Positions 11,063 to 60,911 of a DNA stretch of 64,000 bases are shown piece after piece (positions within the stretch are counted from its first letter, which is position 1; every line of letters starts with the position of its first letter). Both the position numbers and the translations under genes were made by a program. Source of the stretch: Nocardia sp. NBC_00565 (GTDB taxonomy: Bacteria; Actinomycetota; Actinomycetes; Mycobacteriales; Mycobacteriaceae); assembly GCF_036345915.1 (NCBI RefSeq), contig NZ_CP107785.1:4836001-4900000 (forward strand), read 5' to 3'. Below the pieces are notes generated by a model. It searched no databases. It saw only the letters and a program-made list of their open reading frames with translations, and was not told where the DNA came from.

Positions 11063-11091
11063 CTGAGTTTCCCGGCGCTCGCCGAGAACGG

Positions 11092-11162
11092 TGGAGTGTG
11101 GTGTAAGGGCAGCATGACGGACTTTGAATTCGCCGGTCCAGGTTCGAATCCTGGCACTCCAG
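11092..11162 (+). tRNA. tRNA-Gln (TTG)
   Basis: Acceptor TGGAGTG/CACTCCA and T-arm CCAGG-TTCGAAT-CCTGG are identical to the tRNA that starts exactly 100 nt earlier. The anticodon loop CTTTGAA is normal with U33 and anticodon TTG; the stem ACGGA/TTCGC has one terminal mismatch. The pair looks like a tandem duplication of ~100 nt. Confidence 0.75.
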
Positions 11163-11167
11163 CGCAT

Positions 11168-11235
11168 GGCTCATGCAGGTTGGCCCCGGGGCTCTCATAA
11201 GGCCCTGCCGCGTGGTTCGACTCCACGATGAGCTA
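11168..11235 (+). tRNA. tRNA with anticodon CAT and shortened D-arm
   Basis: Acceptor GGCTCAT/ATGAGCT, anticodon stem GGGCT/GGCCC with loop CTCATAA, and T-arm CGTGG-TTCGACT-CCACG are well formed, and CCA is encoded at 11236-11238. The D region is only ~11 nt (AGGTTGGCCCC) instead of ~17, so the gene is 68 nt long. The anticodon CAU could mean Met or, after lysidine modification, Ile. A normal role is doubtful. Confidence 0.6.
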
Positions 11236-11263
11236 CCACCGAAGAGGCTGGTTGGATGGTGCG

Positions 11264-12172
11264 GTGCGGATACTCGTCACCGGCGCGAACGGCTACCTCG
11301 GTAGTGCGGTCGCGCGGACCCTGTGCGCCGACGGGCACGATGTCATCGGGCTGGTGCATCGTGGGCGCGACGGTGTCCCGGACGGGATTGTGGTCCGAAC
11401 CGCCCATCTCGGCGACCGGGACGCGCTCGGCGCGGCACTGCACGGTATCGAGTTGGTCTGCCATCTCGCCGCATTGACCCGCGTTCGCGAATCGTTTGCC
11501 AGCCCACTCGATTACTTCGAGGTCAACGCGGGCGGAACCGTGACGCTGTTACAGGCCATGGCGACCGCCGGGGTGCGCAAGATCGTATTCGCGTCCACCG
11601 CGTCGATCTACGGTGCCCCGCGGCGGCAACCCATGGCCGAGGACCTCGCAGACGATCCGCCGCACCCGTACGCCGCCAGCAAGCAGGCCGCCGAGTCGGC
11701 GATCGCCGCACAGGCCGCGACCGGTCTGCTCGACGCAACGGTGTTACGGCTGTTCAACCTTGCCGGTGGACCGGATCCGGATGAGACCCAGATCATTTCG
11801 CGAATCCTCGCGGTGGCCGCGGGCGAGAATCCGACGCTGATCGTCAACGGCGACGGCAGCGCGGTGCGTGATTATCTGCATCGTGACGATGCCGCGCGCG
11901 CTTTCGACGCGGCGATGGCCGGTCTCTCCCAACCAGGTCGGTACCGTCGCTACAACATCGGCACCGGCGTCGGCACCAGCATCAACGACCTCGTCGCAGC
12001 GGCAACGCGGGTGACCAGATGTCACATCCCGGTCGAATACCGCGCCGCGGCAACAGAACCGGACCGGCTCATCAGCGACAGCAGCCGCGCGCACACCGAG
12101 TTGGGTTGGTCGCCGAACTCCGATATCGACGCGATCATCGAGGACGCGTGGTCGGCTCGGAGGCCGCGATAG
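11264..12172 (+). CDS. NAD-dependent epimerase/dehydratase (extended SDR)
   Basis: The 302-residue protein starts MRILVTGANGYLG, the G-x-x-G-x-x-G Rossmann motif of extended SDR enzymes. It has the catalytic Ser in FASTASIYG and the YxxxK pair in HPYAASKQAAE. The family includes UDP-glucose 4-epimerases and related sugar-nucleotide enzymes; the exact substrate cannot be read from the sequence. The GTG at 11264 was chosen because the upstream in-frame ATG at 11228 lies inside the preceding tRNA. It is convergent with ftsK. Confidence 0.85.
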   Translation: MRILVTGANGYLGSAVARTLCADGHDVIGLVHRGRDGVPDGIVVRTAHLGDRDALGAALHGIELVCHLAALTRVRESFASPLDYFEVNAGGTVTLLQAMATAGVRKIVFASTASIYGAPRRQPMAEDLADDPPHPYAASKQAAESAIAAQAATGLLDATVLRLFNLAGGPDPDETQIISRILAVAAGENPTLIVNGDGSAVRDYLHRDDAARAFDAAMAGLSQPGRYRRYNIGTGVGTSINDLVAAATRVTRCHIPVEYRAAATEPDRLISDSSRAHTELGWSPNSDIDAIIEDAWSARRPR

Positions 12173-16084: not shown

Positions 16085-16705
16085 TTATATCGAGCGATCC
16101 AGGTTAAGTACAGCCCGTACCGCGTCGCCGTCGCCCGTGGATTCGATCCGGACCTCGTCGCGGCCGAACGCGTGCAGCACCAGTTCGGAGGGCTTGCCGG
16201 TCAGAGTCACGGTCGCGGTTCCCGATTTCGTGCGCGCGATCGCGCGCCTGCCGTCCAGCGTGACCAACTCGACGGTGACCGGCGATTTACGGTAGGCCAT
16301 CTTGCCCATTCGGCGCAGCGTCGTCCACAGCTTGTCCTCGTCGGCGGCGGACAGCTCACGCGGCTCCCAACCGGGCGCGGCGCGGCGCACATCCTCGTGA
16401 TGGACGAACATCTCGGTCATGTTGGCGGCTGCGTCGAACGGTTTGAGCGGCGACCACCACGGCGGGCCGGAGCGCACATCTTCCAGCAGATCGGGGAACG
16501 GGCGTTGGGCCGCCTTGGCCTGCACCGACTCCAAGTATCCGGCGAGCGGCTTCAACATGATGCCGGGAGATGCATCCGGCCGCCGCTCGCGAACGACCAA
16601 GTGCGCCGCCAAGTCGCGCACCGTCCAGTCACCGCAGAGGGTCGGCGCGTCCGGCCCGACGGCGGACATCGTATCCACCAGTGCCCGGCGTTCCCGTTGT
16701 GCCAT
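16085..16705 (-). CDS. TIGR03085 family metal-binding protein (DinB/MDMPI-like)
   Basis: The 206-residue protein begins MAQRERRALVDTMSAVGPDAPTLCGDWTVRDLAAHL, the start of the TIGR03085 family, related to mycothiol-dependent maleylpyruvate isomerase/DinB-like four-helix proteins. The GDWTVRDLAAH His and HHEDVRRAAPGW are the putative metal-binding positions. Its function is unknown. Upstream in-frame starts (GTG 16711, ATG 16723) are possible; 16705 fits the family best. It lies between the TnpB remnant and the RNase J terminator. Confidence 0.8.
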   Translation of the reverse strand: MAQRERRALVDTMSAVGPDAPTLCGDWTVRDLAAHLVVRERRPDASPGIMLKPLAGYLESVQAKAAQRPFPDLLEDVRSGPPWWSPLKPFDAAANMTEMFVHHEDVRRAAPGWEPRELSAADEDKLWTTLRRMGKMAYRKSPVTVELVTLDGRRAIARTKSGTATVTLTGKPSELVLHAFGRDEVRIESTGDGDAVRAVLNLDRSI

Positions 16706-16784
16706 GCTCACACTGTCGAACATAGCCCAGCCGCGCGCGTCCGAAAAGCGCCCTCCGGCTCGAGCAATAGCCCATGAGACACGA

Positions 16785-16817
16785 AAACCGCCGGACGACA
16801 ACGTTATCCGGCGGTTT
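16785..16817 (-). terminator. terminator of the dapA-rnj operon
   Basis: AAACCGCCGGA pairs perfectly with TCCGGCGGTTT across an 11-nt loop, 11 nt beyond the rnj stop. On the minus strand it runs into TTTTCG. Confidence 0.8.
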
Positions 16818-16827
16818 CGCGTTGCTC

Positions 16828-19814
<2,987 letters not shown>

Positions 19815-37778: not shown

Positions 37779-37958
37779 TTTTCTTCTCTCAACCTCTCGT
37801 CTTCGCTGGGTCCAGCGCCATCGGGCGCGACCCAGCTATCGTCAGCCGTACCGGATACGGACGCGCGGCAACCCTCCTGGCTGCGACGCGCACACCCGGC
37901 CGATTCCCCTTGGAAACGGCGACGCGGAGGCGGTCATCGATCGAAGCCCGCCGGTACT

Positions 37959-37990
37959 GACCATTTCGAGCGACCTGCAAACAGTCGCTA
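37959..37990. repeat. dispersed palindromic repeat, copy 3
   Basis: GACCATTTCGAGCGACCTGC-AA-ACAGTCGCTA; one change in the right arm (A for G). Located upstream of pnp. Confidence 0.8.
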
Positions 37991-38072
37991 CGGCCACCGG
38001 GGGGCCACTACCGAAGACCGACGCCACGCGACGGGTGCATACGGCTGTCTTGTTGTCGTGCAAACCGGAGCC

Positions 38073-53536: not shown

Positions 53537-54537
53537 CGGGCACCTCCCAGGAAGATGTATCCGGCGACCGTGCCGCAGACCACGGCGACCGCAAAGGTCA
53601 ACGGTGCGAACCGCATTGCGAACCGGCGGCCGAAACTGCCCGCCTGCATCGCGAAGAGCTTCACATCGACCGCCGGGCCGACAACCAGGAACACCAATCG
53701 CGGCAGCAACGGCAGCGTCGACATGCTGGCCGCGACGAACGCGTCGGCCTCCGAGCACAGTGCGAGCACGATCGCCAGCACCGCCAGTACCAGGATCGCG
53801 ATCACCATCTGGCCGGCCAGCCGCTCGTACCAACCCGGCGGCACCAGCACGTGCAGCGCGGCGGCGGCCGCGGCACCGAGTACGAGGAATGCGCTGGCTT
53901 GCAAGAGATCATGCCGCGCGGCTTCGGTGAAGACCTCCCACCGTGTGCGCCCGGTCACGCAGTGGTCGCGTCCACCGCCACGCGGCAGCATCCACTCCGG
54001 ACGCCCGATCCGCGACCAGATCAGCCCCATCACCACAGCGGTGGCCAGTGAACCGGTGAACCGCGCCGCCACCATTCCCGGCTCGCCCGGAAACGCCACC
54101 GCCGTCGCGATCAGCACCACCGGGTTGATCGCGGGCGCCGAGAGCATGAAGGCCAGCGCCACCGACCCCGGCGCACCCTGCTCGGTCAACCGACGAGCCA
54201 CCGGTACGACACCGCACTCGCATCCGGGCAGCGCCATCCCCGCCAGCCCCGCCACACCGATCGCCGCGGACTCATTGCGCGGCAACACCTTTCGCAGCAC
54301 CGCAGGCGAGACGAAGGCCGCGATACCGCCGCTCACCAGCACTCCGAGCGCAAGAAACGGCACCGCCTGAACGAACACCCCCGCGAAGATCGTCACCCCG
54401 GTCTGCAGCCGCGCCGACGCCCCCACCGCACGCACCAGCGGCGCCTGCAGAACCAGACCGAGCACGATCAGCGCCGCGAGCACATACGTCGAGGACACCC
54501 GCGTCCGTACCGAGTTCACAGTGTTGAGTGCGAGCAT
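53533..54537 (-). CDS. DUF318/ArsP-like permease
   Basis: The 334-residue protein has about eight to ten membrane helices with FVQAVPFLALGVLVSGGIAAF and the conserved MALPGCECGVVPVARRL and FMLSAPAINPVVLIATA motifs of DUF318 permeases. The cysteine pair in the conserved motif is thought important for transport of metal or metalloid species. It is first in a two-gene operon with the His-rich TIGR03943 protein. Confidence 0.88.
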   Translation of the reverse strand: MLALNTVNSVRTRVSSTYVLAALIVLGLVLQAPLVRAVGASARLQTGVTIFAGVFVQAVPFLALGVLVSGGIAAFVSPAVLRKVLPRNESAAIGVAGLAGMALPGCECGVVPVARRLTEQGAPGSVALAFMLSAPAINPVVLIATAVAFPGEPGMVAARFTGSLATAVVMGLIWSRIGRPEWMLPRGGGRDHCVTGRTRWEVFTEAARHDLLQASAFLVLGAAAAAALHVLVPPGWYERLAGQMVIAILVLAVLAIVLALCSEADAFVAASMSTLPLLPRLVFLVVGPAVDVKLFAMQAGSFGRRFAMRFAPLTFAVAVVCGTVAGYIFLGGAR

Positions 54538-54833
54538 GGTCCCATCTTGCCAAGTGAGGGCGGCAAATCCCGCTTGTCAGCCCCGACCCGCGTTGCGCCG
54601 CCCGCCGGATGCATCGCCGCGCCCTCTTCGCCGCGCAACAGCCCTCGCATCGCAAGCCGTGCCAATGCTCCCAGCACAGACCTGCCGACGCGAATCGACG
54701 CTTCACGACTCAATGCGCCGCCGCCCCACCCCGACAGTCGAGTCTCCAACGCCCCGGCACAGACCTGGAAGTCCTGCCGGAGCGTGGACTCAGTGCTGCG
54801 CCCAACATCGATGACGGCGCCGTGCTTCCCGGG
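54538..54833. other. 296-bp spacer upstream of the permease pair
   Basis: No gene recognised. It should hold the permease promoter and the terminator of the chaperone operon. I looked for a Zur- or Fur-like palindrome near the permease start and did not see a convincing one. Confidence 0.4.
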
Positions 54834-56948
54834 CTATCCGGACCAGCGGATTCGGGCGGTCGAAGCGAAACTGGCTGCGACAGTGAGGTTTCCGTTCGGC
54901 TCGCGGCGGCAGGACGCGATGGCGATGTGACAGGGGCGCGGGAGGTCGGGCGGGATTCGGACGCCGCCGTCGAGTTCGTAGCGCATATTGGTGACCTTCC
55001 AGGAGCGGGCCTGGGGGTCGTCCGGGCTGGTCGGGGGCTGGTCGGGGCGGACGACGGCCATGACTTCGGTGATACCGACGGGCCAGGTGAAGACCAGCAG
55101 ACCCGCGTGTTCGGCAAGTCCGCTGACGGTCGGGATACCGCTCGGCGCGGGGTCATCTTGTGGCGATTGCTCTGGTCTGCCTCGGGGTTTTGCGGCAGGG
55201 CCAGTATCGGATCGGGTGACCTCGGAGTATCTGCCCGCGACGGCGGCGGCCACCGCGTACACCGGCTGCCCGACGGCGGGTGCGCCACCGTCCTCTAGTT
55301 CGGTGGCCTGCGTGCGGCCCACCACGCGCCACGAGCCGTCCGGCTGGAGTCTGGTCACCCGGTAGTCGACGTCATTCGTCGGCGACGGCGACCAGGCGAC
55401 GAGCACCGACCCATTCGCCAACCGGGTGGCATCGACCCGCAGCGGTGCCTGGACCGGCGTCTCCGCGAGTGCGGCCGCCGCACCGGCGTGATCGGCGCAC
55501 ACCGCCACCGCGGCGAGCAGCGCACGCATGCGCGCGTCGGCCGGTCCGGCTTGTGCCGCGGCGACGAGCCGATCCGCTTCGGCGATGGCCTGTCCGGCTT
55601 CGGCGAGCAGCTGTTCGATGCTCGGCGTCTGATTCGGTGGCAGCAGATCGGATGCGGTGCGCCGCAGTTGCTCCAGATGTGGGAGCGCCGCTACGTACCG
55701 CTTGCCCGCGCAGGCGGTCGTCGCACTGCGCCAGCGCCCGTCCGCCTCGGCCAATATCCGCTGCACCTCATCGGATACCGAGCGGATCGACGTGAGCCCC
55801 GTGCCGTCGGAGCCGACGAGCCTGCGCGCCTCTTCGACGTGACGTGCGGCTTCACGGGGACGACCGCCGCGCAGGGCCGCCCGAGCGGCCTTCAACGGTG
55901 CCTCCCAGAGCCTGGGCGCCGCGTGACCCGAGTGCGATGTCGGCTCGGCCGGTTGCACCGGCGCCGCATGCGGCGAACTCTCCACTCGCGCACCGAGTTC
56001 CGTAGCGATCTCGGTCAGCACCCGCGTGGCGTCGTTCCGGTCCAAACCCAACCGCATCGCCTCATCGAGCAGGTACTGGAAGTCCTCGCCGACGAGTTGA
56101 TCCTCGACCAGCACCGCGGCCCTGACCTTCGGCCGCAATTCCTTCGCGACGTCCTCGGCGATCGCCCGCAGATACTCCTGCAGCGTCGCCTCGCCCGATT
56201 CGAGCACATCGTGGATATGAATGAGCAACTCGTCCAACACGACTCGGACCCGCCCGGGAGGCAACTCCCGCGAGCGAGCGCGCAACGCCTCGGCGCGCAA
56301 CCGAATCTCCTGTGCCTGACCGACTTTCGAGGGATCCACCCGCAGCAGCGCGAACAGCGTCGGCGTCGGTTCGCCGTCGATCAGCCGCTCCCATTCGCTG
56401 AGCAACTGCCGGATCTGTTGTCTGCGTTGGTCGGTCAGCACACCGACGGGCGCGGGCGCATCCTCGATAACCCGATGCCGACGCAACCGGGTCGCGACCT
56501 CTGCGGCACTGAGCCCGCCCATCGCGCCGATCTCCTCCAGCCCGGGAACCTTCCCGGCCGGTACCCCGCCGTGGCGCTGCACCAATCGCGAAATCGCCGC
56601 GTCGAGCATCTCGTAGCGGTCCGCGTCGCGCCGCGCGCGCATCTCCCGCACCCGCACTGCCTCCGCGCGACGCGCCGCCGCGTCCAACAGCAACCGCGAC
56701 AGTGCGGGGTGTGCGTCGACCAGTAGCCCCACCAGCACCCGATATTTCGGATGGTCGCGCTGTCGCTGCCAGAAGCCCCAGACCTCCTCGACCCGCGCCG
56801 CAACCTCCGCATCGCTCAGCGTCTCGGCCTCGTCCAGCGGAATATCGTAGAGCTCGAACGGATCCGACTCCTCGAGCCCGCCGCGCCGCTCGACATCGGC
56901 AAGCACCCGCTTGCGGTAGTCGTTCGGGTTGAACGCCTGCATGGCCAC
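54834..56948 (-). CDS. 704-aa partner of a divergent Hsp70, with J-like N-terminus and Fn3-like domains
   Basis: Residues ~25-90 read ESDPFELYDIPLDE...VWGFWQRQRDHPKYRVLVGL, laid out like a J-domain (DPxELL start, a charged helix, then HP at the turn) but with HPKY at 66-69 where J-domains have HPD. A long helical region follows (~100-480). At about 500-585 comes a fibronectin-type-III-like domain (VLVAWSPSPTNDVDYRVTRL), then another beta-rich domain to the end. The gene begins 3 nt after the Hsp70 stop, so both are one operon. It probably recruits clients for that Hsp70; I do not recognise a named family. Confidence 0.65.
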   Translation of the reverse strand: MAMQAFNPNDYRKRVLADVERRGGLEESDPFELYDIPLDEAETLSDAEVAARVEEVWGFWQRQRDHPKYRVLVGLLVDAHPALSRLLLDAAARRAEAVRVREMRARRDADRYEMLDAAISRLVQRHGGVPAGKVPGLEEIGAMGGLSAAEVATRLRRHRVIEDAPAPVGVLTDQRRQQIRQLLSEWERLIDGEPTPTLFALLRVDPSKVGQAQEIRLRAEALRARSRELPPGRVRVVLDELLIHIHDVLESGEATLQEYLRAIAEDVAKELRPKVRAAVLVEDQLVGEDFQYLLDEAMRLGLDRNDATRVLTEIATELGARVESSPHAAPVQPAEPTSHSGHAAPRLWEAPLKAARAALRGGRPREAARHVEEARRLVGSDGTGLTSIRSVSDEVQRILAEADGRWRSATTACAGKRYVAALPHLEQLRRTASDLLPPNQTPSIEQLLAEAGQAIAEADRLVAAAQAGPADARMRALLAAVAVCADHAGAAAALAETPVQAPLRVDATRLANGSVLVAWSPSPTNDVDYRVTRLQPDGSWRVVGRTQATELEDGGAPAVGQPVYAVAAAVAGRYSEVTRSDTGPAAKPRGRPEQSPQDDPAPSGIPTVSGLAEHAGLLVFTWPVGITEVMAVVRPDQPPTSPDDPQARSWKVTNMRYELDGGVRIPPDLPRPCHIAIASCRREPNGNLTVAASFASTARIRWSG

Positions 56949-56951
56949 CGC

Positions 56952-58634
56952 TCAGCTGTCGCGGCGGCGCGTGCGCTGGACCTGATCCAGTTCGCGCACC
57001 ACATCCGCCTGCGACAGGGTCGCCCCGGTCTGCGTGGTCAGGATCAGCGGTATATCCGCGTCGACGTGATGGCAGGTGACGCGCAGGACGCCGTCGAAGC
57101 CCATCTCGAAGGTCACCCGCACTTCGCTGCCCTCGGGATATCCGGCGGGAATACCGCGAATTCTCCCCTCCACCAGCACTTTTGTATCCTCGGGCCGCAT
57201 CGAGGCGGCTTGGCCCTGCTGTTCGACGATGGTCAACGCGATCTCGTCCTGGTCCGCGCGCACGGTGCCGAAGGACCGGCGCACCTTCACCGGCAGGGTC
57301 GCGTTGCGATGGACCAGCCAGGTCGCCGCCAGCCCGTACTGGTAGTCGAGCGCGAGCACACCGAAACCGCGCGAAACGACGGTGTCCACTTGGATTTCGA
57401 GCATCCGGCGGACCAAGCCGACCGGCTGCCCGAAGGATGCGGCGACCCGTGCGATCGACTGCTCCAGATCGGCGGGTGCGGCGTCGTGAATATCCGCGCC
57501 GTCGCGCAGCCGGCCGCGCGTGGTCAGATCCGCCAGGATCAGCCGTTCCATCTCGAGCTTCTCGCCATAGAGCGCCGCGCCGCGCGCCACCGAAAGGTCG
57601 GGATCGCGCAGTTCGCCCGCGAGGCCGAGTTCCGCGCGTAGTTCGCGCTCCACCATCGGCATTCGGGAAGAGCCGCCGACCAGCAGCAGTCGGTCGACCG
57701 GGGTGACGCCGCGTTTACTCGCCGCGGCCAGGCAGTCGCGAGTGAGATCGATGGTGCGACGCATCAGTGAGGACGTCATCGCGTCGAGTTCGTCGCGCGT
57801 CAACGGGATCACCGCGCGGGCGCCGTCGTGTGCGATCACCACATCGGTGTGCTCGGCATCGGTCAACTCACGTTTGGCGCGCTCGGCGGCGAGCACCAGC
57901 ATCTGGGAGCCCGCCGAATCGTCCAGTGGATCTTCGGCGTCGGGATTGGCCTCGCAGAACTTCTGCGAGAGGTACAGCGCGATGCGCTCGTCCCAGTCGG
58001 CACCACCGAGTTGGTGATCGCCCTCGACCGCGAGCACCGAAATGCGACGGTCGGCCAGTTCGATGACGGTGGCGTCGAAAGTGCCGCCACCCAGGTCGTA
58101 GACGAGCACCGTTTCCCGTGGCCGGTCCTTGCCGACATCCACGCCACCGTCGAGCCTGCCGAAACCGTAGGACAGCGCGGCCGCGATCGGCTCGGAGAGC
58201 ACACCGGCGACATCGAAGCCCGCATAGGCGCCGGCCTGGATGGTGGCGCGGCGCTCCTCGTCACCGAAATAGGCGGGCACCGTGATGACCACGCGTTTCA
58301 CCGCCTCGCCACCGCCGAATTCCGCGTCCGCGGCAAGGCTTTTCAGGATCAGTGCCGAGACCGCAGGCGCGGACCAGGTCTGCCCGTGCGCGGCGAAGCG
58401 CCACTCCGAATCGCCCATCCGCCGTTTGACCAGCGCGCACACATGTTCCGGATCGAGGCGGGCCTGCCGCCGGGCGCCCTCGCCCACCAGATGATCGAAA
58501 GCGGACGCGAACAATACGACCGAGGGCACGGTCGCCTCGCCGTTCAACCCGATCATTACTTCAGGCCGACCGTCGGCATCGATGCGCGCGATTGCCGAGT
58601 TCGTTGTGCCCAGGTCGATGCCGTAGACCCCCAT
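56952..58634 (-). CDS. divergent Hsp70 (DnaK-like) lacking a lid
   Basis: The 560-residue protein starts MGVYGIDLGTTNSAIARIDA and has the nucleotide-binding motifs VYDLGGGTFDATVIEL (about residue 172-187) and LLLVGGSSRMPMVE (about 311). The substrate-binding part is atypical: the DVTPLSLG-type linker is replaced by a divergent sequence ending VVSRGFGVLAL, a short beta region follows, and the C-terminal helical lid is missing. It is distinct from housekeeping DnaK. It is followed by the 704-aa partner and is divergent from a GrpE-like gene. Upstream extension of the frame to 59105 is antisense to that gene and rejected. Confidence 0.88.
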   Translation of the reverse strand: MGVYGIDLGTTNSAIARIDADGRPEVMIGLNGEATVPSVVLFASAFDHLVGEGARRQARLDPEHVCALVKRRMGDSEWRFAAHGQTWSAPAVSALILKSLAADAEFGGGEAVKRVVITVPAYFGDEERRATIQAGAYAGFDVAGVLSEPIAAALSYGFGRLDGGVDVGKDRPRETVLVYDLGGGTFDATVIELADRRISVLAVEGDHQLGGADWDERIALYLSQKFCEANPDAEDPLDDSAGSQMLVLAAERAKRELTDAEHTDVVIAHDGARAVIPLTRDELDAMTSSLMRRTIDLTRDCLAAASKRGVTPVDRLLLVGGSSRMPMVERELRAELGLAGELRDPDLSVARGAALYGEKLEMERLILADLTTRGRLRDGADIHDAAPADLEQSIARVAASFGQPVGLVRRMLEIQVDTVVSRGFGVLALDYQYGLAATWLVHRNATLPVKVRRSFGTVRADQDEIALTIVEQQGQAASMRPEDTKVLVEGRIRGIPAGYPEGSEVRVTFEMGFDGVLRVTCHHVDADIPLILTTQTGATLSQADVVRELDQVQRTRRRDS

Positions 58635-58748
58635 GAGACGCGATGGTAGCAGCCGAATCCGACCCGAGCCCAAGTTCCCACCGGCGGATCCCGATGCCGC
58701 ACAGTTCATTCGATGTGCACCCGCACGGACGCAAGTTAAGGTGCGAAT

Positions 58749-59417
58749 ATGACCGACCCAGTCGCGCCGCAGGCCGAGGACCACACCAACCCCCTCGCAC
58801 CGCAGGCCGAGGACGGAACCGCCGCCGCACAGCACTCTGCCAACCGCACGAATCCCTGGGCTCAGCAGACCACGGACAGCCCCCGCACGCGGCAAGCCGA
58901 CGACAGCACCGTCCCCGTCGCCCAGCAGGCTGATGATCACACCGACCCACTCACCCAACTGGTCGAACGCGTCGAAGACCTCAGCCGAGTAATCGCCCGC
59001 CAAGCCGCCACCATCGAGCGTCTGGCCGACGAAGCCAAGGCCCGCGACCGACGCGACCGTGCGGGCGCGGACCTCCCTCTCGTCGTCGAGCTGTTCGCCC
59101 TCCACACCGATACCGCCGCGTGCGCGACAACCGCCGAATCCCCCCGTGAGCGCACGGCCTTCGAAGCCATCGCCGCCCGCATCGAGAGATTGATCGTCGC
59201 GCGCAACGGCACCCTGATCACTCCGCGCCCGAACGACGCGTTCGACTCACTCACCATGGAGGCCGCCGATGTCGCGAAGACAGACGACCCGGACTCGGAC
59301 CGCACGATCGAGTCTCTGGTCCAGACCGGCCTGACGGTCTCCGGCCGATCAGTGCGGCCTGCGAGCGTAGTCGTGCGCCGGTACCAGCCGTCGGCCGCAC
59401 GTGGCGTTCCCCGGTGA
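58749..59417 (+). CDS. GrpE-like nucleotide exchange factor, divergent
   Basis: The 222-residue protein has a low-complexity N-terminus with imperfect repeats (APQAED, NPLAPQAED, VAQQADDHTDP). A long coiled coil follows (about 67-105: LVERVEDLSRVIARQAATIE), then a helical bundle. The C-terminal beta domain reads TIESLVQTGLTVSGRSVRPA, closely paralleling the GrpE ending (GY..-RVLRPA-V-V). GrpE opens the Hsp70 nucleotide pocket. It is divergent from the Hsp70 gene with 114 bp between the starts, supporting a shared function. Overall identity to housekeeping GrpE looks low. Confidence 0.7.
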   Translation: MTDPVAPQAEDHTNPLAPQAEDGTAAAQHSANRTNPWAQQTTDSPRTRQADDSTVPVAQQADDHTDPLTQLVERVEDLSRVIARQAATIERLADEAKARDRRDRAGADLPLVVELFALHTDTAACATTAESPRERTAFEAIAARIERLIVARNGTLITPRPNDAFDSLTMEAADVAKTDDPDSDRTIESLVQTGLTVSGRSVRPASVVVRRYQPSAARGVPR

Positions 59418-59507
59418 ATCCGCCTAACAGCAGCGGTCAGACGACCGCCCCGCTCGAGACGCCGGATCCGATGGCCGCGCAAGAGCAGATCCTGAACTCG
59501 GATTCGA

Positions 59508-60911
59508 TCACGCGATCTGGCGCGGGACCTCGGTACCGATCTGTGCCCAGCGCCCGGACTCGGCCCGCCAGAGCACCGCGACCAACCGAAGCAGCATGAA
59601 TACGACCAAACCCGACCAAATTCCGGCGATGCCCCAGTCGAAGACCAGCGACAGCCAGATGGCGGGGAGAAAACCGAGCAGGGCCGCGCCGAGGGTGGTG
59701 TTGCGGAGATAGGCGGCATCGCCCGCGCCGAGCAGGACGCCGTCGAGGGCGAAGACGATGCCCGCGATCGGGATGATGGCCACGAAGAACCACCAGGCGA
59801 CATGGGTCCGGTCGAGGACGGCTGGGGCGTCGGTGAACAGCCCGGGAATGACGGTGGCGCCTGCCGCGAAAACGGCCGCGAGGATCAGCGCGAAGCCGCC
59901 CGACCAGCGAGTGATCCGCCGAGCCAGCCCACGCGCGCCCGATGCGTCGCCCGCGCCCAGCGCCGCGCCGACCAGGGTTTGGGCGGCGATCGCCAGCGAA
60001 TCCAGGGTCAACGCAAGGAAATTCCAGAGCTGCAGCACCAGTTGATGCGCGGCCACCGATGCCGCACCGAATCGGGCGGCAACGGCCGCCGCCGAGACGA
60101 AACTGGCTTGGAAGGCGAGGCTGCGGGCGATCAGATCACGACCGAGCACCAGTTGCGCCCGCATCACCGACCAGTGCGGTGCCAGCAAAACACGTTCGCG
60201 TACAAGCGCGCTCAGGAAGAGTCCGGCCGTCACCGACTGGCCCGCGACGTTGGCCACCGCCGACCCCGCCAGCTCGAGTCGCGGCGCACCCAACAACCCG
60301 TGCACCAGCGTCGGGCACAACAGTCCCGAAACCACGAGTCCCGAAACCACGAACAGCAGCGGCCTGCGCGTCTCCTGCACCCCGCGCAACCACCCGTTAC
60401 CCGCCATCGCGATCAGAATCAGCGGCACCCCGAACAATGCGATCCGCACCCAGACCAACGCTTCCCCCGCGATATCCCCGCCGCCCGCGATCACGTTCGT
60501 CAGCGCAACCGCAACCGCCTGCCCCACAACAAGTATCAGCGTCCCGACGATCACGGCGACCCACGTCGCCTGCACCCCTTCCCCGATAGCACCCCGCTCA
60601 TCCCCCGCACCATGCCGACGCGCTGCCCGTGCCGTTGTGCCGTAGGACAAGAACGTCAGCTGCGAACTCACCTGCGCCAGAATCAATCCGCCGACCGCGA
60701 GCCCAGCCAACGCCAGCGCCCCGAGCCGCCCCACCACCGCCAGATCGAACAGCAGGTAGATGGGCTCGGCCACCAGCACACCCAGCGTCGGCAGCGCCAA
60801 CCCGAGAATCCGCCGGGGTCCCGCGGTCGTCGGATCGGCCTTCGCCGCTCCCCCGCCGTCGCCATCGGGTGGCCCGGCCAGTTCGGCGTCATCCAAACCC
60901 TGTCGCGTCAC
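59508..60911 (-). CDS. dinF: MATE family efflux protein (DinF)
   Basis: The 467-residue protein has 12 membrane helices and the two-fold MATE layout. After a ~30-residue polar N-terminus come ILGLALPTLGVLVAEPIYLL and FDLAVVGRLGALALAGLAVG, and a second half starts near DLIARSLAFQASFVSAAAVA. MATE proteins export organic cations or drugs in exchange for Na+ or H+. It lies downstream of nrnA on the same strand, as dinF (Rv2836c) does in M. tuberculosis. Confidence 0.92.
   Translation of the reverse strand: MTRQGLDDAELAGPPDGDGGGAAKADPTTAGPRRILGLALPTLGVLVAEPIYLLFDLAVVGRLGALALAGLAVGGLILAQVSSQLTFLSYGTTARAARRHGAGDERGAIGEGVQATWVAVIVGTLILVVGQAVAVALTNVIAGGGDIAGEALVWVRIALFGVPLILIAMAGNGWLRGVQETRRPLLFVVSGLVVSGLLCPTLVHGLLGAPRLELAGSAVANVAGQSVTAGLFLSALVRERVLLAPHWSVMRAQLVLGRDLIARSLAFQASFVSAAAVAARFGAASVAAHQLVLQLWNFLALTLDSLAIAAQTLVGAALGAGDASGARGLARRITRWSGGFALILAAVFAAGATVIPGLFTDAPAVLDRTHVAWWFFVAIIPIAGIVFALDGVLLGAGDAAYLRNTTLGAALLGFLPAIWLSLVFDWGIAGIWSGLVVFMLLRLVAVLWRAESGRWAQIGTEVPRQIA

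Follow-up and report, generated by a model that had tools for sequence, protein, structure and literature searches.

Genes for HSP70 and GrpE, together with a fibronectin type III (FNIII or Fn3) protein fused to DnaJ or TPR, occur in about 14% of the gene neighbourhoods of GAP1-N2, and the GTPase-centric GAP1-N2 systems were proposed to be biological conflict systems in the part of Kaur et al. (2020, eLife, PMC7159879) that treats them. The Hsp70 HscC of E. coli lacks GrpE-interacting residues and has the J-domain proteins DjlB and DjlC as partners, and its loss raises cadmium sensitivity (PMC8215388, in its passages on HscC). The components of the Ter (tellurium resistance) stress system are summarised in a part of PMC7824862 and in Pfam descriptions, and according to a passage of PMC9111180 GroEL and DnaK were co-immunoprecipitated by TerD in a single species. 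Here we describe a trio of linked genes, encoding an Hsp70, its putative partner and a GrpE, in a stretch of 64,000 nucleotides from Nocardia sp. NBC_00565 (NZ_CP107785.1, positions 4,836,001 to 4,900,000), below called the window. There is good support for the identity of the three parts and for their kinship with the GAP1-N2 theme. The trio appears to be a variant of the known chaperone module that lacks GAP1-N2 and possibly serves the Ter response, by a mechanism that we infer. It has the following layout:

56952..58634, minus strand: Hsp70-like gene, 560 aa (Pfam HSP70 E 2.5e-84, alignment and residue table)
54834..56948, minus strand: partner gene, 704 aa, downstream of the Hsp70 stop with a 3-nt gap
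58749..59417, plus strand: GrpE family gene, 222 aa (Pfam GrpE), divergent from the Hsp70 gene
58635..58748, no strand: intergenic region of 114 bp between the divergent Hsp70 and GrpE genes

The original prediction, made from the sequence alone, had already recognised these three linked genes with the partner 3 nt downstream and the GrpE divergent, and we confirm this arrangement. The mechanically delimited open reading frame (ORF) of the Hsp70 is longer, reaching 59105 (717 aa); the 560-aa form was taken because the homology of relatives starts at its residue 1.

It had also been stated there that no named system of such composition was known. This view has to be given up, since the GAP1-N2 theme has it (Kaur et al. 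2020, PMC7159879, in the part cited above) and the FNIII proteins of that theme are homologues of the partner. GAP1-N2 was detected in 14 of 197 genomes of the class. Among the 14 stretches fetched around it, five contain an Hsp70, with 37–42% identity to that of the window, and three of these five also contain a GrpE; L150 gave an extra partial and weak Hsp70 match (32% over 218 residues) and is not among the five. When a profile of the five proteins encoded downstream of these Hsp70 genes was compared with the partner family, hhalign reported a probability of 99.3 and E 1.9e-20. The alignment covers residues 5 to 635 of the partner family, and its N-terminal part alone scored 101 versus at most 19.8 in 40 shuffles. 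A search for GAP1-N2 in the Nocardia genome itself gave 0 matches. Because the partner is homologous to the GAP1-N2 FNIII proteins while its own genome has no GAP1-N2 match, the trio resembles this theme's chaperone part, the GAP1 component being absent.

The neighbourhood itself is conserved, as had been expected in the original prediction. Fetched stretches were scored with profiles of the partner, GrpE and TerD and with the window Hsp70 sequence, and the partner, Hsp70 and divergent GrpE are kept together in 20/20 window-type family loci that have upstream sequence. These are the window, 13 loci of its genus (11 of them named Nocardia), three of a second genus, and L060, L181 and L177; L012 and L014 were left out of the count, the locus being cut and the upstream region absent. 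Since relatives repeat the same gene order, the arrangement is not due to chance. Identity to the window in the Nocardia locus L003 is 94% for the Hsp70 and 85% for the partner. In L177 an additional 126-aa ORF (11083–11463) stands between the Hsp70 and partner genes.

The distribution of the partner is patchy. By single-sequence searches, in which few candidates were scored per genome and misses are possible, it was matched in 31 of 296 genomes of the class, 26 of which belong to one other family (f19) and two to the window's own family, the remaining three giving weak matches in the Fn3 range only (E 3e-4 to 9e-4). Within its own family 11 of 151 genomes had a match (G387 by residues 647–699 only), as did three of the 10 listed genomes of the same genus. 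A second-clade copy is present in each of the 26 matching f19 genomes, and about 23 have a first-clade copy additionally. Wide stretches, chosen mostly for contig room, were fetched for 18 of the latter and 14 of the former. Hsp70 and partner are both present in all 18 first-clade loci; one of these, L063, has genes for DapB, peptidase M16, PNPase and ribosomal protein S15 as neighbours (Pfam). In 12 of the 14 second-clade loci a GrpE-like domain was found on a longer upstream ORF, and the other two gave GrpE-like matches of 20–21 bits with filters off. In L072–L079 this domain stands at the end of the ORF. The partner paralogues of the second-clade loci carry a cysteine-rich insert between their helical and later parts, which in the one that was scanned resembles a double zinc ribbon (Pfam E 2e-4, below cut-off). 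The Pseudonocardia locus L011 has no GrpE; a TerD-domain protein is encoded upstream, divergent from the Hsp70.

The Hsp70 consists of a nucleotide-binding domain (NBD), a 57-residue spacer, a degenerate linker and the beta part of the substrate-binding domain (SBD-beta), without a helical lid:

57552..58634, minus strand: NBD, residues about 1–361 (residue table)
57000..57335, minus strand: SBD-beta, residues about 434–545, the last folded domain (phmmer versus DnaK of known structure, whose second matching stretch covers residues 434–556)

Equivalents of D8, K70, E171, T199 and D201 are kept in all 56 rows of the Hsp70 family, and because GrpE is kept along with them a working nucleotide cycle can be argued. 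R167 is the residue acted on by the Asp of HPD (passages of PMC7289447 and PMC8215388); its equivalent is Arg in 0/56 rows, being replaced by Gly, Asp, Ala or Asn, with Gly in the window. The stretch from NBD to linker is 57 residues long everywhere except in GAP1-linked rows (30–52), compared with 10 in DnaK, and the DnaK linker VLLLD is replaced, QVDTVVSRG standing at that place in the window. The column of D393 holds Asp in two of the 56 rows, a result that depends on the alignment because in the window clade an Asp sits one column away. Past the SBD-beta/lid junction there are 19–22 residues in the window-type, Ter-clade and GAP1-linked Hsp70s, 38–155 in the f19 first-clade copies (tails of uncharacterised nature) and 126–136 in the two DnaKs of the same genome. 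Thus, the earlier description of this Hsp70 as ATPase-intact yet lidless is upheld. In NCBIfam it matches DnaK and other Hsp70 models, all under their cut-offs, and from eight proteins of relatives a single weak match was obtained in total. The residue table and the Hsp70 tree leave out L012, L061 and L186, whose start was not recognised. Two canonical dnaK-grpE-dnaJ clusters (near 5.34 and 8.20 Mb) and a third DnaJ-domain gene are found elsewhere in the genome, which makes the trio a specialised set in addition to them. Further weak HSP70-family matches lie at 0.25–0.26, 3.23, 3.29, 8.16, 8.18, 8.91 and 9.11 Mb.

The 222-aa protein, described earlier as GrpE-like, scored 28.6 bits in Pfam (cut-off 25.8) and adopts a GrpE fold in its AlphaFold model, the ten-residue means of the core being mostly 95–98 with one block at 89. 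Hence neither of the outcomes named in the original prediction as refuting it, a missing GrpE fold or an unconserved neighbourhood, was observed. The core lies as follows:

58947..59384, plus strand: GrpE core, residues 67–212, with a long helix, two further helices and a beta-rich end (AlphaFold)

A dedicated GrpE lineage is not supported: with the window-type profile canonical-cluster GrpEs score much like linked ones (11–33 bits for four canonical-cluster, 20–34 for second-clade and 29–45 for GAP1-linked proteins). The N-terminal extension of the window GrpE (58749–58946) resembles degenerate short repeats by eye, and its length differs among relatives.

The AlphaFold model of the partner (mean pLDDT 89.9, pTM 0.42) is helical up to about residue 497 and then forms two Fn3 domains; tandem-Fn3 structure matches (Foldseek, VIA-align) span residues 497–704:

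56184..56381, minus strand: degenerate J-like module, residues 190–255, with PPG at the HPD position (hhalign; weak evidence)
55203..55460, minus strand: fibronectin type III domain, residues 497–582 (tandem-Fn3 matches)
54837..55136, minus strand: second Fn3-like beta-sandwich, residues about 605–704 (tandem-Fn3 matches)

The partner has 314 homologues at E<=1e-3. Among those listed, the label 'SaeA fourth Fn3-like domain' occurs in source names and PF25835 in precomputed domains, and no literature was found on this family. Pfam gave no match above cut-off, DnaJ included, which speaks against a canonical J-domain, and NCBIfam gave zero matches. No J-domain chain stands among the listed Foldseek and VIA-align rows; Fn3 matches fill these lists, so that this is no evidence against a J-domain.

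The view that the partner is a J-protein analogue, put forward in the original prediction, can be kept in part: there is a weak J-like profile match, but HPD is absent and the Hsp70 has no R167 equivalent. Against a profile of 28 J-domains from actinobacteria (31 J loci less three that fell outside the extraction pattern), residues 188–255 gave an hhalign score of 22.7 with a probability of 32% over 29 columns. None of 200 shuffles reached this score (mean 8.7, maximum 15.3), and the match extends from helix I through the HPD position, corresponding to the first half of a J-domain. Among 38 windows slid along the partner the top two (21.3 and 21.0) overlap this module, the best without overlap scoring 12.9; reversed profiles gave 7.5–8.0 and GrpE helices 10.9. 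The HPD position is mostly PPG, otherwise RPD or PHD, and the HPD tripeptide occurs in 0/85 rows of this module and in 0/85 rows of module 22–100; outside the two it is present somewhere in four of 64 partner alignment rows. Similarity of module 22–100, which has a DHPK motif, to J-domains was rejected (score 12.5, reached by 31/200 shuffles). Since the losses of HPD and R167 coincide, module 188–255 may be a J-domain that has decayed or diverged, with the Hsp70 opposite it having lost the need for HPD.

Linkage of relatives to Ter stress genes, which was absent from the original prediction, is found here, and no paper was found that states an Hsp70/GrpE–Ter link in its title or the start of its abstract. 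By profile, TerD is encoded within the fetched stretches of L011, L177, L060 and all 14 second-clade loci. It adjoins the GrpE gene in L177, and in L181 a TerD-like gene (23.3 bits, just below the Pfam cut-off of 25.3) stands beside the partner. The window-type trio of L060 is surrounded by TerD, TerC/DUF475, three AIM24 and one C-C_Bond_Lyase gene, and the second-clade locus L075 by StiP-PELOTA_1, PRTase_2-TRSP, C-C_Bond_Lyase and TerC/DUF475 genes (Pfam); a TerD gene was confirmed at the corresponding place in L074. For the Nocardia genome alone, about 1.8% of positions were computed to lie within 9.5 kb of TerD. The Hsp70s of the window type, of the f19 first clade and of the Ter-linked clade cluster in the tree (96/91) separately from GAP1-linked ones and DnaK. 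All first-clade copies together have the Ter-linked clade as their sister group, and L011+L177 (a weakly supported pairing, 86/54) and L060+L181 split off earlier than the second genus and that of the window. Because these Ter-linked loci branch early, the simplest reading is that Ter linkage was present early in the window's lineage and was lost later. The genome's own Ter cluster (L129, 7967500–7987000) encodes TerD, C-C lyase, a PRTase_2-TRSP-StiP-PELOTA protein and AIM24, and no HSP70 match was found in it; by eye, it also has an ORF resembling TerC. Among the GAP1-N2 stretches, L148 encodes a TerD-domain protein (16688–17896) beside a GAP1-N2/Hsp70/GrpE/FNIII locus, uniting both contexts.

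Around the trio, a MatE gene adjoins it in the window and in two annotated Nocardia loci (L001, L003), and in the window DHH, RbfA and IF-2 genes form a run with it. Among the ten ORFs neighbouring it that were examined with Pfam no GTPase families other than IF-2 were seen, the genome beyond them not having been searched for such GTPases. The best PADLOC match had an E of only 0.067, and a defence island was not visible in the window, L001 or L003. No HAIR-like site was found in the whole window with <=3 mismatches allowed (chance expectation 1.07), which leaves heat-shock control via such a site without support, and no sigma-70-like promoter was found within 54500–59600. An Actino-pnp RNA (Rfam RF01688) lies on the minus strand at 37929–38022.

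We propose that the trio is a dedicated HSP70-GrpE-FNIII-type machine without GAP1-N2, most probably serving the Ter response, and give this proposal about an even chance of being right; the Ter function is suggested as a possible one by linkage in relatives. In such a machine the helical half of the partner would dock on the Hsp70 as targeting factor and ATPase trigger, with the HPD–R167 contact not used, and the Fn3 domains would hold or recognise the client. Hydrolysis of ATP would clamp a client segment only loosely, the lid being absent, and GrpE would reset the cycle through ADP release. A likely client would be a Ter component or an assembly formed by Ter proteins, and the Nocardia trio, lying apart from the Ter cluster, would work in trans. 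Several observations weigh against this proposal: (i) the J-like match is weak (29 columns, probability 32%), and the adjacent partner segment 256–325 scores 14.8 with the J-profile, a value reached by 4/200 shuffles; (ii) a canonical J-domain was found in none of the 14 GAP1-N2 stretches, and their five FNIII proteins show no clear similarity to the J-profile (17.2, P 0.059); (iii) all 18 first-clade f19 loci lack GrpE and TerD by profile; (iv) none of the 14 TerD matches of the genome falls within the window, and TerD is absent by profile from the stretches of the 13 same-genus and three second-genus loci (6–9 kb flanks, some cut); and (v) a long DnaK branch serves as the root of the Hsp70 tree, for which the program warns of long branches meeting. 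The stronger claim, that the J-trigger has been rewired (HPD, R167 and lid lost, ATPase residues and GrpE kept) and that the Ter response has this machine as its chaperone arm, we hold to be rather doubtful.

Alternatively, the partner could be a client or scaffold and not a J-like trigger, the Hsp70 using GrpE and intrinsic hydrolysis alone to remodel an Fn3/helical assembly. The absence of HPD from 85/85 rows and of an R167 equivalent from 56/56, the lack of J similarity in module 22–100 (31/200 shuffles) and of clear J similarity in the GAP1-N2 FNIII proteins, and the higher conservation of the Hsp70 than of the partner in L003 (94% versus 85%) all fit this explanation. However, the best J-profile match of the partner falls at 188–255 (21.3 versus 12.9 in the best non-overlapping window), and FNIII–DnaJ fusions are reported in such systems (Kaur et al. 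2020, PMC7159879, in the part cited above), so we regard it as possible, if on the unlikely side. A catalytically dead Hsp70-like scaffold, which the missing lid and replaced linker might suggest, is very improbable in view of the five ATPase residues kept in 56/56 rows and the co-kept GrpE.

Homology of the partner and Hsp70 to components of GAP1-N2 loci, proposed conflict systems, would also agree with the trio being a remnant of such an anti-invader system that still acts in defence; we consider this unlikely, as the genome has no GAP1-N2 match, PADLOC gave at best E 0.067, and the trio lies by MatE (window, L001, L003) and, in the window, in the DHH/RbfA/IF-2 run with no visible defence island. 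The genes nearby, for IF-2 and RbfA in the window and for PNPase and ribosomal protein S15 in L063, might instead point to an accessory role, specific to the lineage, in translation or ribosome assembly. Yet the early-branching relatives adjoin Ter genes and, unlike core translation genes, the partner is found in 3/10 listed same-genus genomes, which makes such a role quite improbable.

If the proposal of a dedicated, Ter-serving machine is true, the trio offers a natural test of the need for the HPD–R167 contact, the linker and the lid in the Hsp70 cycle, because it lacks all of these at once but keeps the ATPase residues and the exchange factor. The poorly understood Ter response would also be linked to a chaperone module that was proposed for GTPase conflict systems, and would thereby gain a testable ATP-driven component.

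Comparison with known systems places the trio as follows. With HscC and its partners DjlB and DjlC, as described in the cited passages, it shares the principle of a specialised second Hsp70 having its own partner, but a GrpE gene adjoins the window Hsp70 and HPD is absent from its partner. It has the Hsp70 NBD with ATPase residues and the GrpE fold in common with DnaK/DnaJ/GrpE, from which it differs in the missing lid, R167 and HPD, the replaced linker and the spacer of 57 instead of 10 residues. As for Ter systems, the trio lies away from Ter genes in the window and the other same-genus loci examined, whereas some of its relatives stand among TerD, TerC, StiP, PRTase_2, C-C lyase and AIM24 genes. 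The GAP1-N2 systems differ in that the Nocardia genome has no GAP1-N2 match and some relatives of the trio are Ter-linked, but they share with it the Hsp70, the GrpE and an FNIII-repeat component homologous to the window partner.

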